A DNA stretch of 45,394 nt from a virus: positions 1-45,394 of the IMG/VR virus record IMGVR_UViG_3300030329_004340. One strand, 5' to 3'. This document shows, in pieces, positions 1 to 26,775 of this stretch. The notes beneath the pieces were generated by a model that saw only the letters and a program-made list of their open reading frames with translations, was not told the origin of the DNA and made no database searches. Position 1 is the first letter of the stretch, and every line of letters begins with the position of its first letter. The position numbers were made by a program, and so were the translations under genes.

Positions 1-160
1 CCTCCTGTCTATTTATAAACTCTTGCTTTAGTCTTTCGTATGTTTCTTCATCAGTTGCATCAATCAGTCCACCTGATATTATTCCAAGACATATTCCTGC
101 TGCTTTGTCTTTGTTCATCCCATCTCTTACATATTCTTTATATACTTCTGATATTTTCAT
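1..160 (-). CDS. Hypothetical small protein, 3' end cut by window edge
   Basis: Only the first 53 residues are inside the window, and the reading frame is still open at base 1. The start ATG (160-158) overlaps the stop of the upstream gene as TAATG, and GGGAGG lies just upstream as ribosome binding site, so translation is probably coupled. The visible part is mostly helical and charged and begins MKISEVYKEYVRDGMNKDKA. It is the last visible gene of the leftward early block. I recognise no family and infer no function beyond a small early phage protein. Confidence 0.6.
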   Translation of the reverse strand, partial: MKISEVYKEYVRDGMNKDKAAGICLGIISGGLIDATDEETYERLKQEFINRQE

Positions 161-3786: not shown

Positions 3787-4217
3787 GAAGACCCAAAAAA
3801 TATAAAAAAGGCGGGAAAACAGATAAAGAATTTAAAAAATATCCCTATTCATATAAAATGAACGAAGGGCCATCAAGTGAAGATATTTTAAATGTCACTC
3901 CAAACCCTAAGCCAGAAGGTGTAATTTCAAGGGTTACAGATACTGCGAAATCTTGGGGTGAAGAAGCAATTAGTGGAATGAAAGAAATGATGAGCAGAGA
4001 CAATCTTGTAGAAATGTCAAGAAAGGCTGGAGAAAAATTAGCTAGTATTAAAAATCTTGGAGAAGATATCAAGAGAGCTGGCTCTGATGCTTTTGAAGTA
4101 AAGGATATGGAAAATCAACCTAAAGACCATTCTGGAGAACCTACAAGTTATTATGAAGCTGGTGGCAAAGTTCCTATTTCTGATGCTAGAGAAAGAAGTA
4201 AAAAGAGTTATATATAA
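3750..4217 (+). CDS. Hypothetical basic virion-associated protein
   Basis: A 155-residue protein with a very basic N-terminus (MPQGKGTYGSQVGRPKKYKK) followed by a mostly helical, charged body. The start MPQGKGTYGS...GRP is one I remember from uncharacterised proteins near structural genes of many uncultured phages. The basic start could bind DNA or be an assembly tag. AAAGGAG lies 7 nt upstream of the ATG. It is translated into the lysozyme-like gene, whose ATG overlaps its end. Function unknown. Confidence 0.65.
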   Translation: MPQGKGTYGSQVGRPKKYKKGGKTDKEFKKYPYSYKMNEGPSSEDILNVTPNPKPEGVISRVTDTAKSWGEEAISGMKEMMSRDNLVEMSRKAGEKLASIKNLGEDIKRAGSDAFEVKDMENQPKDHSGEPTSYYEAGGKVPISDARERSKKSYI

Positions 4218-4879
4218 TGCCAAGAGATTGGGAATTTGACACAGAGTCTTCGGACTATACTATGTTGCAAGATATACTTTCTGACTTAGGAGGAGAGACT
4301 AGAACATTTGGAGGCAAAGATATTAAAGGATGGAATCAAGACCCTGACACGCTAATGAATGCAATGAGGCTTATATCATTACATGAAACAGGTGGCACTG
4401 AGAGTCCTACCCAAATGCAACTTCAAGGAAAAGAAGGACAAGAAGGCATGGGTTTATTTCAATATGAGAAAGGTAAAGGCCATGGAGCTCATACTGCTAT
4501 TAATAGACTTGAAAGTTATTTTGAAGGGAGAGGAATGGATGTTCCTGAATGGCTTAGTTCTGTAAATGAAGAAAGTGGATGGGATGTAAGCTCATTATCT
4601 CCATCTCAACAATATATGTTGTTTTTAGGAGACAAAGCTCTTGACCCAACTGCACACATGAGAGATGTTGACACAGTTGGTGGCCTTAGAGATTTTTGGG
4701 AAAAAGAACATTGGGCAGGACATAAGTATGGTGAAAATAATCAATTATTAAATCCAGAAGTTGTTAAAGCAAGGCAAGAAAGTTTTGACGAAACAATAGA
4801 GCATAATTTAAAAAAACATGGGGATTCAATGGGATTTTTTAAAGATACAATGTTAGACCAATTGGCATCTAAAAAATAG
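4217..4879 (+). CDS. Lysozyme/transglycosylase-like protein
   Basis: A 220-residue protein with hallmarks of a lysozyme-type muramidase or lytic transglycosylase: HETGG near residues 56-60 with a candidate catalytic Glu, then MGLFQYEKGKG (residues about 76-86) resembling the GLFQ segment of goose-lysozyme and Slt-like folds, and a helical C-terminal part with WEKEHWAGH. It would cleave peptidoglycan, either during DNA entry as a virion enzyme or at lysis. It has no signal peptide and lies between a small protein and TerL rather than beside a holin. Catalytic assignment is inference from motifs only. Confidence 0.6.
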   Translation: MPRDWEFDTESSDYTMLQDILSDLGGETRTFGGKDIKGWNQDPDTLMNAMRLISLHETGGTESPTQMQLQGKEGQEGMGLFQYEKGKGHGAHTAINRLESYFEGRGMDVPEWLSSVNEESGWDVSSLSPSQQYMLFLGDKALDPTAHMRDVDTVGGLRDFWEKEHWAGHKYGENNQLLNPEVVKARQESFDETIEHNLKKHGDSMGFFKDTMLDQLASKK

Positions 4880-17275: not shown

Positions 17276-17968
17276 ATGAAAATAGGTGATTTATTATTAC
17301 TTAAAGGCTATATCAATAAAAAGCAATTACAACAAGCCCTAAGAAAGCAAGCAGAAAATGCTATTAATTATGATAAGTCTCAACCTCTAGGTAAGGTTTT
17401 AATAGAGGAGGGATATGTTACGCCTGATGATGTTGCGGAAGCTTTAGAAGACCAATCATCAGCAATAAAGGAGGAAAGAGCTATGTCTAGGCCAACGGAA
17501 ATAGGAGAAGGTAGTAAATTTACTTTTGATTTAAAATTCTTAGTAACTATAGGAGCGGTTATCGTTTCAGGATGTGGAATTTATTTTACAATGAATAGTG
17601 CTATAGATGAATTAAAATCGGCAAATAGTCCTAGTAGATTGGAATATGAAGTTTTACAAAATGAAATAACAAGTATTAAAAGCAAAGGGAATCTAGATAT
17701 AATTACTTATAAACTAGAAGAATATGATGAGACATTTGCTGAAATAAAAGAACTTGTAAATGATTTAAAGCCATTAAAATCTGACTTAGAATACATTAAA
17801 TCAGAACTTAACAAATTGAAAAATGTAGAAATAGATATACCAGAAGTTGATTTGTCTGGCTTAGAAACTTCTATTAATAAATTAAGCAATAGCTTAAATA
17901 ACATAGAGAATAAATTAAATGACTATGAAAAGAGACTTAATAAAGTTGAAAAGGGAGGTAGGTTCTAA
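17276..17968 (+). CDS. MshEN-like domain fused to a membrane anchor and coiled coil
   Basis: A 230-residue protein of three parts. Residues 1-61 hold two repeats of the MshEN/T2SSE_N pattern: IGDLLLLKGYINKKQLQQAL and LGKVLIEEGYVTPDDVAEAL, each followed by a Gln. In MshE-type ATPases this domain binds cyclic di-GMP. Residues 86-107 are one membrane segment (FLVTIGAVIVSGCGIYF). Residues 120-228 form a long coiled coil, likely periplasmic if the N-terminus is inside. The first ATG follows a stop (TAAATG) with no Shine-Dalgarno, but an in-frame ATG at codon 70 has a strong one, so a short form without MshEN is probably made. Cyclic di-GMP binding is an inference. It precedes an outer-membrane-type protein. 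Confidence 0.7.
   Translation: MKIGDLLLLKGYINKKQLQQALRKQAENAINYDKSQPLGKVLIEEGYVTPDDVAEALEDQSSAIKEERAMSRPTEIGEGSKFTFDLKFLVTIGAVIVSGCGIYFTMNSAIDELKSANSPSRLEYEVLQNEITSIKSKGNLDIITYKLEEYDETFAEIKELVNDLKPLKSDLEYIKSELNKLKNVEIDIPEVDLSGLETSINKLSNSLNNIENKLNDYEKRLNKVEKGGRF
17468..17485 (+). promoter_or_regulatory. Internal Shine-Dalgarno and start codon
   Basis: AAGGAGG (17468-17474) lies 8 nt before an in-frame ATG (17483-17485) inside the MshEN fusion gene. It is a better initiation site than the gene's first ATG. It would give a 161-residue form starting MSRPTEIGEGSKF that keeps the membrane segment and coiled coil. Confidence 0.65.
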
Positions 17969-19029
17969 TGTATGGAAAACTTATTAAAACTATTTTACTT
18001 TGCAGTACATACAGTAGCTTACTATTTAGCAATTTTTTTGACAATGCTACTTTGTATGGTTCTGTTTCTATGTCTACACCCTATATTAATGGCAATTCTC
18101 AAATAGAAGATGACTATAAATACAACTTAGGATTAAGAAAGATTGCCTTATTCCCATACCAAAATAGAGATACTTTTTATGATGGAGAAGAAGAAGAATT
18201 AAGTGATAATGCCTTATTTGGAGCTGTTGAGGGCCTAGAATACCTTTTTTCAGTAAGTTCTATACGACACCAAGGACATGAGTTTACTGACCAAAATATT
18301 TGGCTTAAATGGTCAACTTCTAAATTTGCTACTAAAATATCATATGTAGATAAAGAAAGTAGAGATTTACAATTTACATCAATTGATGCAAGATATAGAT
18401 TAAAAGTTTGGAATATGAATTTAACATTAGGTAGCTCGATAAAAGCTCATCCAATATATGGGCATCCACCTATATTAGACTATGAAGGTGCATGGTGGGA
18501 ATTAGCATATGAATATGGATTTGTAGATTATATGGTGCCTCTTCATGACTTAAATGAAAATGGGATTATAGATGATTATTATGTATGGATTGAAACAAAT
18601 CCTGAGACTGAAGATGGTTATTGGATATATTATTACGAAGGAATTAATTACTATTGGGAAAATCCTAATGGAGAGTATGTAGCTGGTAGTGATGAAGAAT
18701 TTTTTGAATATCATTATCCGCATGTAGTTAATATGTATAATGAGGAAAATAAGTCAAAAGATTGGCAAGCTGAATTATCTATCATGATTGGATTAGATTT
18801 TTATATGGGTAATGATAATTATTATTCCCATATTTGGGCAAATGTTTTTCCTGAATCTGTTGGATTAACAGATAAGGCTTATGAAGGGGAGGACATTCAA
18901 TATGACATTGGCATTCTATTAGGAACCAATCTAAGTGAGCATATTGGGGTATTCATTGAGGGTAAACAACAATCTTATTATGGTAAAGAAGAATATAACA
19001 TTAGTACAGGAGTAAATTGGAGATTTTGA
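17968..19029 (+). CDS. Predicted outer-membrane beta-barrel protein
   Basis: A 353-residue protein with a Sec-type signal peptide (basic MYGKLIK, hydrophobic ILLCSTYSSLLF, cleavage near residue 21-24). The mature part alternates polar and aromatic residues as barrel strands do, and it ends NISTGVNWRF, with the terminal Phe typical of the BAM-recognised beta-signal. An aromatic, acidic insert (about 193-265) carries DLNENGIIDD, resembling a calcium-binding DxNxxG loop. It would be placed in the host outer membrane. AAGGGAGG precedes the ATG, and it directly follows the MshEN/coiled-coil gene. From memory, similar proteins occur in other uncultured phages without known role. Outer-membrane disruption, receptor masking or a tail-associated part are alternatives. 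Confidence 0.65.
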   Translation: MYGKLIKTILLCSTYSSLLFSNFFDNATLYGSVSMSTPYINGNSQIEDDYKYNLGLRKIALFPYQNRDTFYDGEEEELSDNALFGAVEGLEYLFSVSSIRHQGHEFTDQNIWLKWSTSKFATKISYVDKESRDLQFTSIDARYRLKVWNMNLTLGSSIKAHPIYGHPPILDYEGAWWELAYEYGFVDYMVPLHDLNENGIIDDYYVWIETNPETEDGYWIYYYEGINYYWENPNGEYVAGSDEEFFEYHYPHVVNMYNEENKSKDWQAELSIMIGLDFYMGNDNYYSHIWANVFPESVGLTDKAYEGEDIQYDIGILLGTNLSEHIGVFIEGKQQSYYGKEEYNISTGVNWRF

Positions 19030-22500: not shown

Positions 22501-25195
22501 ACCATTTGGCCCAAATGGATATGATGGCACTGCATCAAGTGGAAATTACCAAGGTGATGGGAAATATGGAGTAATGACTGATTCTTCAGGAGCATCTACA
22601 ACTGCGGTTCAATATAAGGCTGATGATGCTTTTGGGAAAATGTATACTGGAAATCACGATTGTAAGCAAGTTCTTTATAATTGGGGAAGTAATCGTCTTG
22701 ATTGGCATGATGAAGAACCTTATTCTGATAATGGTAGATGGTTTCAAAAAAGAGAACATTTATATACCTTTAAAGGATATGATACAAGTGATACATTAGA
22801 TTTAGATTCAAAACTAAATAATGATGTTGCATTAATTGAATGGGAAATTGAAGATTTCTTCATGGGTAAAAAAATGTCTGAAAGAATGATGGATACTGAG
22901 AATGGTTCACCTGGAAATGTTATTCCAAATTGGGAACTTGATATATATGCTTTTGGAACAACTGAAATTGATACAAGTGATGTAGATGGCGTTTCATATA
23001 CATCTCCTGGAACACTTGCTACACCAGATAATGCATGGAATGGCTTAGTATTTACTACAGTTGGAGATGTAGCAGAAGCAATGTCAACAATTAATGGAAG
23101 CCCTATATTTAGTTGGAATTCAAATCCATCAAATAAACAATATCATGAAATTTATACTATGCATAGTGGAATGAGCGATAGAGTTGACGATATAAATGAT
23201 GAATATGGTCATTTCACTGCGAAATATAATGGTTCTGCTTCATTTCCTTTAGGGCAAATAAATAAAAGAAATACAATTGGAGTAAAACTATTAACTGATT
23301 GTAGCTCTCTTCTAAATATAGGAGGTGCTAGCTATACTCCAAATGAATGGCAAAATTCTGCTACTAGAAATGTCACTAATGGCTCTCAATATCTACATGG
23401 TGGAGTTGCAATGGTTACTCTTAAAAAATTACATGTATATGGTTATACAAATGGATATTCAGCTACAGATTTACCTACTTCTAATCAAGTAAGTGGTGGT
23501 ACTCTTATTAATCTTAATTTTACAGGAACAGCTGGGTCAGGTTGGAATAAAACTTGGGATGTTGCACTTACAACTGTCAATATTCATGGAGAAGAAAGTG
23601 CTTTTTCAAATATAGAAGAAGGTGTAAGCGGAGGTACATCTACACAACAATTAGAAATGTCAGTATATATGACACAAAGTATTCCTAATGATAAATATCT
23701 TAAAAAGATTAAAGTATATATGAAATCATCTACTTTAGATATCTTTTATTTACAAGCTGAAATAGACTTAGGAACAATGAAGATTAAATCTTCTACTTCA
23801 GGTAAAGAATTTCCTGGATTATATATATCTGATAAAGGATATTATTCTTTTACTTTTCCAAAAGATTATGGGTTGCAACCAAACTTAATCGATAGCTATG
23901 AATCTCAAACTACTATACCTCAAAAAGTAGCATTTAATAGTGAGAATATGTATTGTAAATTCAAAACAGCTACAATATGTAATAATAGAGTATATGTTGG
24001 AAATGTAGAGCAAAATGGAAGAATATATAGTGATAGAATGATAAAATCACCAGTTAATCAATTTGGAATTTTACCTTCCTCTAGTTTTATTGATGTAGCG
24101 ATTAATGATGGAGATGAAATAACTCATCTTGAATCTTTTAAAGATTCTCTTATGCAATTTAAAAAGAGAAAAGTATTTATTATTAATGTATCTGAGGGTT
24201 ATGAATATTTAGAAGAAACACTTGATAATGTTGGAGTTGAGCATAGTAGCCAAGTCTGCAAAACTCCTAAAGGAATTGCATGGATAACAGAAAATGGATG
24301 CTATATTTGGGATGGAAAAGAATTAACCAACTTAATTGAAAACAAACTTACAACTGAAACATTTTCAGATGCAGCTTGCAAATGGCAAATTATATCTGAT
24401 GATATTCCTCAAATAGGCTACTTAAAAGAAGCTGATAAATTAATTATATTAAAATCATCAAAACCATATACATCTACAAGTTCTGAAGGAAGATACTTAG
24501 AGGGATATATATATGACTTTAGAAATCAAGCATGGACAATGACATTTAATAGAACTCATGCACATGGAGAAAAATCTAACTTTATTCATCATACAGATGG
24601 TAGTCTTGTTTGGAATAATAGCAGTGCAGCAGGCAACAATATAGCTAAGTTTTACAAATGGAGCAATGACCCAATATCTACATATAATATGCCTGGAGAC
24701 CTTTCAACTTTAGATAATATTAATGATTTAAAACAATTTAGAATAGTCACAAAAGACTTTACATTTGAAGAGCCTTCTGTTAGAAAAAAGATATATAAAG
24801 TTTATGTTACTTATAAAAGTGTTGATAATGTTGGGCAAACTACTGAAGCGGCAGCTAATTCAAATGTTTTATTATACTATGCAACTAATGGACAAGGTGA
24901 AGTAAATGGAACAACTAATTGGACAGAATTCCCAGAATCTAAAGAAGCTAGTGCAAGTACAGTATTATATAAAACAAGTAGTGAAGATGCTGGTTCAGCA
25001 GGATTTCAAGGAACATCTACATGGAAAACGGTTGAATTAAAACCATCGTCATCTATCAATAATATATATTCATTTCAATTAAAATTTGAATTAGATAAAC
25101 AATCTTCATATAAAGATAGCAATAATTCAAAAGTTGCTAATGGCTTTATGATTAATGACATAAGTATTGTATATAGGAAAAAAAGCATTAAATAA
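19586..25195 (+). CDS. Giant tail protein with nozzle-like C-terminal part
   Basis: An 1869-residue protein starting at GTG (TAGTG overlap). The N-terminus (LTLNDFSGGVNT ... VSGG) and the last ~450 residues, with FKDSLMQFKKRKVFIINVS, GIAWITENGCYIWDG and a later YDFRNQAWTMTF, resemble the beta-propeller of podovirus nozzle proteins (T7 gp12-like). The long middle is inserted beta modules: a DTDGDGNYD calcium-type loop near residue 230, two copies of a short repeat ending in NGTT (about 379-420 and 622-663), and regions like carbohydrate-binding modules (FTIPHNVES followed by YIDDVRL). It probably forms the tail nozzle and a host-surface contact. The assignment is moderate because the protein is more than twice the size of T7 gp12. 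Confidence 0.6.
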   Translation: MAKEVLTLNDFSGGVNTHSFDRDVKTPGKDPSEAQSVLSSFLNLGDSDKGGEFVQLYNVEVDVDGVLRVSGGTHQNHVATYGQNRFPDGLIQGGGLFSYPTDNTLNYLNHGILNSNKYSNWTLGSGVSLVSSDTITLSDGTSTKDISPSSANSDRFIKMTQTASQYGASAVPMNSIELNLDSSKEKVPIKAGKTYTLRFKMTSNQPYIETAGVYPPSIKIYNDNNVFDTDGDGNYDSPIYNTIQGWGTDSSATANDATAHNSNDGKSLLTLESVDNDFVGTADITVSSGTSTFDISAGNATAAVVQGEGMPTYWLKNRTFLAAVEGTDTAGGSGAAILLNEGSDLDADDSAPVLDDGTNASADNEVQHWIARAEGGGVGDIIKIDDEEMAFISKSSGTFNVIRGYNGTTAAAHTNNKPVSKLANRTNALKITISDDTSPDAVWFGTSNYLDGNFSAGENYQIMFYYRTDRNVGTGSYTANAYNPVFTLNEYDGSSWSETLRKVLPNTTIGDGGEDTTGSKIALSNNNASVSGTVKGTLAAHGLKTGDVIYIEESPTFRGNQVVTVIDDSNFYFTHPGFARAGTQTVVKQDDGSNNNLVNMAGHFGAGATALTVDDGQTFQPGDVIQMGSEDVYVYSISGNVLTVVRDWNGTTDAQQNDDSTIEYQDAYAVAHVWRPATFTLSNPNRKRGWIQHRLSGDTTKIKSGFTLAKDPDGDKYIHVSHFDIYKASGVDLETLAFNNDELTSPFEEEFIGDWQEYEYTFTIPHNVESGSKNNPIPGWRIKIDGGYVVDPAYNNVDVAAVGKKSTHNLYIDDVRLTSDENDFVYLFSRNTTSVSDLIALSPNTFGAENIVRYTGLDADFQTYIANGRVFICDSNYSNKDNRPYQFQYVNSDRNLESIGAGTSTYWKKGIHTNEGPTLLGTTSKSGGIDYDNVVKLIDNGLMNSDIIDRRTYARVMKKYESAFGWNPNSSRPFGPNGYDGTASSGNYQGDGKYGVMTDSSGASTTAVQYKADDAFGKMYTGNHDCKQVLYNWGSNRLDWHDEEPYSDNGRWFQKREHLYTFKGYDTSDTLDLDSKLNNDVALIEWEIEDFFMGKKMSERMMDTENGSPGNVIPNWELDIYAFGTTEIDTSDVDGVSYTSPGTLATPDNAWNGLVFTTVGDVAEAMSTINGSPIFSWNSNPSNKQYHEIYTMHSGMSDRVDDINDEYGHFTAKYNGSASFPLGQINKRNTIGVKLLTDCSSLLNIGGASYTPNEWQNSATRNVTNGSQYLHGGVAMVTLKKLHVYGYTNGYSATDLPTSNQVSGGTLINLNFTGTAGSGWNKTWDVALTTVNIHGEESAFSNIEEGVSGGTSTQQLEMSVYMTQSIPNDKYLKKIKVYMKSSTLDIFYLQAEIDLGTMKIKSSTSGKEFPGLYISDKGYYSFTFPKDYGLQPNLIDSYESQTTIPQKVAFNSENMYCKFKTATICNNRVYVGNVEQNGRIYSDRMIKSPVNQFGILPSSSFIDVAINDGDEITHLESFKDSLMQFKKRKVFIINVSEGYEYLEETLDNVGVEHSSQVCKTPKGIAWITENGCYIWDGKELTNLIENKLTTETFSDAACKWQIISDDIPQIGYLKEADKLIILKSSKPYTSTSSEGRYLEGYIYDFRNQAWTMTFNRTHAHGEKSNFIHHTDGSLVWNNSSAAGNNIAKFYKWSNDPISTYNMPGDLSTLDNINDLKQFRIVTKDFTFEEPSVRKKIYKVYVTYKSVDNVGQTTEAAANSNVLLYYATNGQGEVNGTTNWTEFPESKEASASTVLYKTSSEDAGSAGFQGTSTWKTVELKPSSSINNIYSFQLKFELDKQSSYKDSNNSKVANGFMINDISIVYRKKSIK

Positions 25196-26775
25196 TGGCA
25201 AATAAATTATTACATACCAAGCAAACAAAAAGCAAGGTATCTAATCATTTTTTCGCATCAAATGTAGGTAATGATTCAGATATCAATATAGTCTCTCTTG
25301 TTTCAAAAGGAACTTATTTAACCGCAAAAGCTGGCGGACAATGGCATTCTGTTAAACTTCAACCACCTCAAGAACTAGATAATGGAAATTTCATTAATTT
25401 AAAAGTCGAAGGAGAAGCAACATTTTATAGTTCTGAAATTCAATTCCTTAATGGATTTAGTAGCCCAGGAGATATATATATAAGAGCAGGTGCTAAATTA
25501 TATTTTGAAGCAAAAACTGCAAGCCCAGATATATATATTACAGCAGGTTCAGATACACTTGAGTTTCATGTAGGTGGTGATAATATTATGACTTTAAATG
25601 AAACAGATGATGGATTTTGGTTAGAACTTCAAAATAATGCTGATTTAGTTATTAGTGCGGCAGATAAAATAAGATTAGATGGCAATGAATCTGGAAACAC
25701 TTATATTAGTGGAGAAACAAGTGGACTTGGAGATGACATAGTATTTACAGCTGGAGGTGGCGATATAATGTCTCTTACTTCAGCATCTGTTACTATAACT
25801 GGTACAGCATCTATGACAAGTACAACAGCAGACCAATTCAAGATTAAATATGATGCAAGCAATTATGCTTTAATGAATGTTAGTGCAACTGGAGATTTAG
25901 AAATTGAAACAATTGGAGCGGGTACTACTGATTCCGATATTACTTTAAATGCAGATGGAGATATTATTTTAAATGCAGATGGCGGTAATATAGATTTTAA
26001 GGATGCTTCAACAACTTTAGCACAAATAATAAAACAAACAAGTGGAAACGAATTTTACTTGCACTCGGCAATAGGAACTGCTAATTATCTTAAAATGTAT
26101 ACAACCTCAAATGGTGTATCAACTATAAGTACAGTAGATAGTGATGGAACTGTAGGTCATTTAACAATAGCCCCTAATGGTATATTAAAAACAGAAGCAG
26201 ATGATGGTGGTATATTTATAAAAGAAACTGCCGACGCAGGAACTGATACTAATGGATATGGACAAATATGGGTACATGATACTAACCCTGTAGAATTATG
26301 CTTTACTGACCAAGATGGAACAGATATTATAGGTATTGGAAAATATCATTATGATATTAAGTTTATTGGATATGCAGGTTCAGGAACAGCTTCTTATTTA
26401 CCAATTAATGGATATATTTTTGACCAAACTTCAACTTCTAGTAGAAATGAATATCATAGTTTTATTGCCCCTTATAATGGCACAATACAAAAAGTAGCAT
26501 TTAGAAGTGAAGTTGCACAAGATGGAGATTTGAGCTTTAGGGTGCTTGAGTCTGCTGATGGAACTGAAATTCCTGGAACTACTGTTTTTAGACATGAAAC
26601 AACAGTAGATATAGCAGATGATGTATATCAAGAATTAGATATGACAGGGCCAGGCACAGGTAGTGATTACTCTCCATTAACCAAGGGGAGAATTTATGTT
26701 TTTTATTTAAGTTGCCCATCTGCACCTTTAGATACAAATATAACTATTGTTTTTAAATGGGATATAACAAGTTAA
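25195..26775 (+). CDS. Probable tail fibre / spike protein
   Basis: A 526-residue protein, nearly all short beta strands, with repeats such as LNADGDIILNADGGNIDF (about 250-268) typical of trimeric fibre shafts. Residues 1-70 may be the tail-binding head. The last ~130 residues (from YHSFIAPYNGTIQKVAFRS) look like a separate beta-sandwich tip that could bind the receptor. The start overlaps the stop of the nozzle gene (TAATG). It is the only clear fibre gene in the window, so it probably sets host range together with the middle of the nozzle protein. Confidence 0.65.
   Translation: MANKLLHTKQTKSKVSNHFFASNVGNDSDINIVSLVSKGTYLTAKAGGQWHSVKLQPPQELDNGNFINLKVEGEATFYSSEIQFLNGFSSPGDIYIRAGAKLYFEAKTASPDIYITAGSDTLEFHVGGDNIMTLNETDDGFWLELQNNADLVISAADKIRLDGNESGNTYISGETSGLGDDIVFTAGGGDIMSLTSASVTITGTASMTSTTADQFKIKYDASNYALMNVSATGDLEIETIGAGTTDSDITLNADGDIILNADGGNIDFKDASTTLAQIIKQTSGNEFYLHSAIGTANYLKMYTTSNGVSTISTVDSDGTVGHLTIAPNGILKTEADDGGIFIKETADAGTDTNGYGQIWVHDTNPVELCFTDQDGTDIIGIGKYHYDIKFIGYAGSGTASYLPINGYIFDQTSTSSRNEYHSFIAPYNGTIQKVAFRSEVAQDGDLSFRVLESADGTEIPGTTVFRHETTVDIADDVYQELDMTGPGTGSDYSPLTKGRIYVFYLSCPSAPLDTNITIVFKWDITS

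Follow-up and report, generated by a model that had tools for sequence, protein, structure and literature searches.

One late gene of this virus probably gives rise to two nested products, and we hold this with considerable confidence: a long protein that carries an N-terminal MshEN_N domain, and a short protein that begins at an internal in-frame start codon and consists of the remaining membrane anchor and coiled coil. The window analysed here is a stretch of 45,394 bases out of a 48,213-base virus record, and the features discussed below are collected in Table 1. An earlier note on this DNA had described the open reading frame, and its coordinates and translation were borne out when the sequence was read again. 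The explanation of the whole that we favour, tentatively and just short of even chances, is that of a dual-start gene whose inner-membrane core is combined with an outer-membrane barrel and with an optional, c-di-GMP-tuned domain. The parts are known, the combination is new; in the titles, abstracts and term counts of the literature searched, no description of a phage-encoded MshEN domain was found.

Table 1. Features of the probable dual-start gene and its partner (positions in the window unless a contig is named)
Feature	Position	Strand	Basis
Long form, 230 aa (MshEN_N, transmembrane segment, coiled coil)	17276..17968	+	ORF and translation
MshEN_N domain, residues 1-62	17276..17461	+	phmmer, profile search, VIA-align
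MshEN motif I, residues 2-25 (KIGDLLLLKGYINKKQLQQALRKQ)	17279..17350	+	24-residue spacing as in PMC5013675
MshEN motif II, residues 37-60 (PLGKVLIEEGYVTPDDVAEALEDQ)	17384..17455	+	24-residue spacing as in PMC5013675
Internal Shine-Dalgarno AAGGAGG	17468..17474	+	conserved in relatives
Putative short form, 161 aa, starting MSRPTEIG at ATG codon 70	17483..17968	+	start codon kept in relatives
Single transmembrane segment, about residues 86-108	17531..17599	+	hydropathy maximum 1.95, window 88-106
Helical coiled-coil region, residues 121-182 and 194-226	17636..17953	+	AlphaFold2 secondary structure
Shine-Dalgarno GGGAGG of barrel gene, within conserved C-terminal GGRF codons	17953..17958	+	-12.7 kcal/mol
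Partner gene, 353 aa, predicted 12-strand outer-membrane beta barrel	17968..19029	+	model, VIA-align, synteny
Short-only homologue	L122:3394-3879		profile search

The first ATG follows immediately on the upstream gene's TAA and lacks a Shine-Dalgarno (SD) sequence (duplex energy +0.6 kcal/mol), whereas the in-frame ATG at codon 70 has its AAGGAGG 8 nt upstream (-11.6 kcal/mol), a contrast that the earlier note had drawn and that these energies confirm. The internal SD ranks fourth strongest among 40 starts examined in the window, and its energy is reached by 4 of the 1211 other ATGs there. Homologues of the 230-aa protein were found at 45 IMG/VR loci, the relatives being metagenomic viral contigs. 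Of 65 distinct contexts among them, 59 have ATG as the internal start codon, 6 have GTG and none has anything else, while the linker peptide varies; a recognisable SD precedes this codon in 59 of the 63 long-form contexts, the four without a clear one being L015, L041, L069 and L072. GTG appears on at least three branches (L035/L036; L073; L098/L102/L200) and is the sole Val codon at this position, yet it accounts for 5.3% of the Val codons elsewhere in these genes; since ATG to GTG is a one-step mutation, this alone is not proof. When the same peptides were recoded synonymously in 500 shuffles, none of the 500 reached as low a mean SD energy as the natural sequences (-7.46 against -4.66 ± 0.38, 47 contexts); as the contexts are related, such counts do not represent independent events. 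Start codon and SD are both conserved beyond amino-acid constraint, as expected of the preserved internal start that had been proposed, and it is because the ATG/GTG is invariant and the SD exceeds the synonymous null that two nested products appear very likely. The internal SD is the stronger one in 35 of 47 contexts; a smaller share of the relatives accordingly has a good SD at the first start as well. That the N-terminal region is translated too can be read from the differences among relatives, 59% of which fall at third codon positions.

It could be argued that the internal start is a relic of gene fusion, that only the long form matters and that the SD-like sequence merely reflects a Lys/Glu-rich linker. 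The linker is indeed KEE-rich in many members, and the SDs of the four contexts named above are weak. However, such a relic would have to survive the outcome of the synonymous null, the presence of a start codon in all 65 contexts, GTG substitutions that preserve start function, and an AGGAG kept in the differing linkers of both versions of the N-terminal region (K-type and N-type, see below), which makes it highly improbable. Dual starts of this layout have well-known precedents in T7 gene 4A/4B and the long and short forms of E. coli CheA, where one frame with an in-frame internal start yields isoforms with and without an N-terminal domain; the proteins and their functions are unrelated to the phage gene described here.

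That residues 1-62 form a MshEN_N domain, as the earlier note had read from two MshEN-type repeats, is well supported by profile and model comparisons. Searched against the PDB with phmmer, residues 1-69 gave meaningful matches only to the N-termini of type IV pilus/MshE ATPases (PilF, 5e-10), and the family profile matched PilF (7.9e-12), PilB (2.7e-07) and MshE (1.8e-04). In the AlphaFold2 model of the 230-aa protein (overall pLDDT 67, about 80 for residues 1-60, the coiled-coil part being of low confidence), VIA-align matched the predicted fold to the four-helix bundle of the MshE/PilF N-terminal subdomain: c-di-GMP-bound MshE (5htl, Z 9.9, 2.3 Å over 59 residues) and PilF GSPII-B (9gl5, Z 9.9, 1.3 Å over 56 residues) were followed by other PilF/PilB chains, the first unrelated helical bundles appearing at Z 6.4. 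Both repeats have the published 24-residue spacing, and most key positions fit the motif (R/K/L)LGxx(LVI)(LVI)xxG(LVI)(LVI)xxxxLxxxLxxQ, with deviations at I3, Y12, P37, Y47 and V53. Pfam returned no PF05157 for the N-terminal part at E<=10, in a search that had no positive control for an isolated N subdomain; DUF4388 passes the cut-off in this region. The phage domain shares with MshE of V. cholerae and PilF GSPII-B/C of T. thermophilus the four-helix fold, the two 24-residue motifs and most ligand contacts. Unlike them, the phage protein has neither MshEN_C nor an ATPase and is fused to a membrane anchor and coiled coil, its domain has Lys and Pro at two motif-first positions, and its linker counts 11 residues instead of 5.

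The earlier note had further held that the short part exists alone in other phages and that MshEN is an added module. A short-only gene was found on one contig only (L122); the domain is a module, but "added" needs correcting, since nearly all relatives carry an N-terminal domain and it is absent only in L122. The L122 core starts at MATELGEGSKFT, after TAGGAGGTATT, exactly at the position of the internal start and with an SD of its own, and it groups with N-type relatives to which it is 85-94% identical; as it sits inside a clade that has the domain, domain loss is the simplest reading. Where the domain usually stands, L122 has an 87-aa gene (L122:3122-3382) with one transmembrane segment and a coiled coil, holin-like by eye, for which no Pfam match and no relative in the other loci was found. 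In a tree of the core (58 rows), the N-terminal type needs at least three changes, forced by well-supported branches, and its two versions, K-type and N-type, are swapped on separate branches; that different cores bear almost the same N-type domain (MNIGDYLLKSNKITQKQREKAELEHE...) indicates module exchange. The genes upstream of the long-form gene also differ among relatives. MshEN_N would accordingly be better put as a swappable, occasionally lost module.

Compared with the published motif (PMC5013675), the predicted c-di-GMP contacts of this protein, a K-type member, are K2 (for R9), I3 (for L10), G4, D5, L18, L22 and Q25 in motif I, and P37 (for R38), L38, G39, V53 (for L54), L57 and Q60 in motif II. 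PilF GSPII-B, which has a natural Lys at the first position of motif I, binds c-di-GMP with a KD near 6 nM, and GSPII-C, with Pro (P335) at the first position of motif II, binds near 500 nM (PMC11731258); the isolated MshEN_N of MshE (1-62) binds at 0.35 µM (PMC5013675). Because the contact residues are retained and the Lys/Pro deviations occur in PilF domains that bind, c-di-GMP sensing is plausible here, and we consider the chances of binding by this protein to be evenly poised. Most relatives retain the residues for c-di-GMP: contact positions are kept in 42-44 of the 44 K-type relatives and P37 in 40, with conservative changes at positions 3 and 53; the turn residue Gly46 varies. Across 39 K-type domains the contact positions (position 37 excluded) are 0.955 identical as compared with 0.801 elsewhere, a value attained by 15 of 10000 random position sets, in a set chosen by the pattern MK[IL]GD plus Gly39, a choice that predetermines part of both motifs. 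The N-type domain has lost motif I, and the equivalents of R9, L25, L29, Q32 and Q61 are gone; c-di-GMP sensing therefore cannot account for the family as a whole: judged from these residues, it is plausible for this protein and not conserved family-wide.

The kinship with PilF, PilB and MshE, the domain's nearest relatives, might also point to a docking decoy, which would bind the partners of type IV pilus/type II secretion ATPases at the membrane, stop pilus assembly and exclude superinfection, with the barrel masking or replacing a surface receptor. Phage proteins that target PilB are known (Tip of D3112, Aqs1 of DMS3), and swaps of the N-terminal version between lineages fit adaptation to a changing host target. 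Docking alone does not, however, predict K-type ligand contacts conserved above the rest of the domain, nor could any host pilus gene be linked, and we regard a decoy as unlikely. Terminase and portal, compared for host assignment, gave distant matches only.

The stop of the dual-start gene overlaps the start of the next gene as TAATG. A barrel gene, which the earlier note did not mention, lies downstream of the core in every one of the 66 distinct contexts that extend far enough to tell, and neither gene was seen there without the other; the barrel start overlaps or falls within 10 nt in 42 of them, within 150 nt in 14 and further away in 10, some of the latter with small ORFs in between. The barrel model (pLDDT 78) has 12 strands and an insertion of roughly 100 residues between strands 7 and 8. 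Its best VIA-align match is KdgM (4fqe, Z 14.3), and its fold resembles small porins (KdgM, NanC) and autotransporter barrels at 9-10% identity, as well as other viral proteins in BFVD (closest A0A516LKJ4, 24% identity). The even strand number of the model and the C-terminal Phe (most relatives end in WRF or similar) are features of an outer-membrane barrel, and the N-terminus has a signal-like hydrophobic helix, judged by eye and from a modest hydropathy peak. The insertion shows no less conservation than the strands (0.78 vs 0.72); within it, a DLNxNGxID-like stretch, in which D194, N196 and D202 are invariant, is reminiscent of a calcium-binding loop. No homologue of the barrel was found in cultured phages.

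Likeness to small oligosaccharide porins such as KdgM and NanC could suggest an auxiliary uptake pair, in which the barrel would be a porin and the inner-membrane protein its periplasmic scaffold, but a similar fold at 9-10% identity is no demonstration of function, and the conserved insertion of ~100 aa could fill or cap the barrel, so that this reading seems improbable. Because the core and barrel genes are strictly paired, we infer instead a trans-envelope complex of the two, an inner-membrane/outer-membrane assembly that we consider somewhat probable. Since the pairing is constant and the N-terminal module exchanged, core and barrel would form the constant unit and the sensor domain its swappable part. 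The arrangement recalls the NfrB/NfrA pathway of the N4 receptor in E. coli, in which an MshEN-bearing inner-membrane protein is paired with an outer-membrane protein (PMC8669472, PMC8669469); NfrB/NfrA is a host-encoded glycosyltransferase system and the phage pair has no glycosyltransferase, the likeness drawn here being one of arrangement.

The dual-start gene lies among phage late genes (terminase, portal, SU10-type capsid, metallophosphoesterase), and no other late gene of the window has a classic single transmembrane segment, one very large virion protein aside. This, the large helical domain that follows the segment, and the best PHROG matches (holin, 8.7e-5; Rz-like spanin, 1.8e-4) would suit a dual-start lysis protein, in which the short form would act as a class III-like holin or an i-spanin, the long form would counter it, and the barrel would stand in place of a lipoprotein partner. 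Lambda offers models for both aspects, S105/S107 being a holin-antiholin dual start and Rz/Rz1 spanins that are inner- and outer-membrane partners encoded by overlapping genes. The phage gene resembles these in being a dual-start membrane protein with an overlapping partner gene, but differs in that its forms are set apart by a folded domain of 69 residues instead of 2 residues, and that its outer partner is a predicted beta barrel and not a lipoprotein; a lysis role is here a proposal. These PHROG matches, to which the support for a lysis assignment is confined, are weak and coiled-coil prone, and in a control the holin profile also gave weak hits in unrelated genomes. Moreover, the gene sits among structural genes with no endolysin recognised, and the family has no conserved lipobox, Cys being absent in several clades. 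A lysis protein of this kind is rather unlikely, and a role in lysis control in the broader sense is doubtful.

Several narrower identities were rejected. The coiled-coil region matches Pfam DUF7365 weakly, and control genomes ring at low stringency for DUF7365 as for holin; a short-form lipoprotein (VSGC) fails because the Cys is not conserved among relatives; and an Rz-type i-spanin with an o-spanin lipoprotein is at odds with a downstream gene that encodes a predicted barrel. No lipobox was found among the other gene starts scanned, and the last 2.8 kb of the record hold mostly minus-strand ORFs, with no lysis gene recognised by eye.

In the dual-start mechanism that we favour, ribosomes coming from the upstream gene would initiate at codon 1 and make the long form, and those loading at the strong internal SD would initiate at codon 70 and make the short form. 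Both forms would have the one inner-membrane anchor in common, and also the coiled coil, which is probably periplasmic (N-in/C-out; charge counts under the positive-inside rule do not decide between topologies), and the core would join the downstream barrel in a trans-envelope complex during late infection. The long form would add a cytoplasmic MshEN_N, whose most likely role in K-type lineages is to bind c-di-GMP and to tune the complex. What is tuned, the least certain part, would probably be the moment at which an envelope event, for instance lysis, takes place. More speculative still is the full version, in which an optional-sensor c-di-GMP receptor would set the activity of the inner-membrane/outer-membrane complex through the ratio of the two forms and the host's c-di-GMP, with lineages swapping or dropping the sensor; we think it rather improbable as a whole. 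If c-di-GMP is bound, the phage would have direct access, at the membrane and late in infection, to the signal by which its host switches between sessile and motile life. The swapped versions would provide a natural comparison of sensing, non-sensing and absent sensors on a constant core.

Outside the metagenomic contigs, the core gave only weak coiled-coil matches among cultured phages (E 0.3 or worse, in Bacteroides phages), and no homologue of core or barrel was confirmed in contigs of cellular genomes. The idea that similar short proteins occur in cyanophages and pelagiphages found no match in HTVC008M or P-SSM4, in a search without a positive control. Two further observations concern other parts of the window. 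The 220-aa protein encoded at 4217-4879, adjoining the terminase, has a lysozyme-like look (HETGG...GLFQYE) and no Pfam, PHROG or PDB match. At 25768, an in-frame ATG within ORF 25195-26775 is accompanied by a strong SD-like sequence of -13.8 kcal/mol and may be a second internal start.
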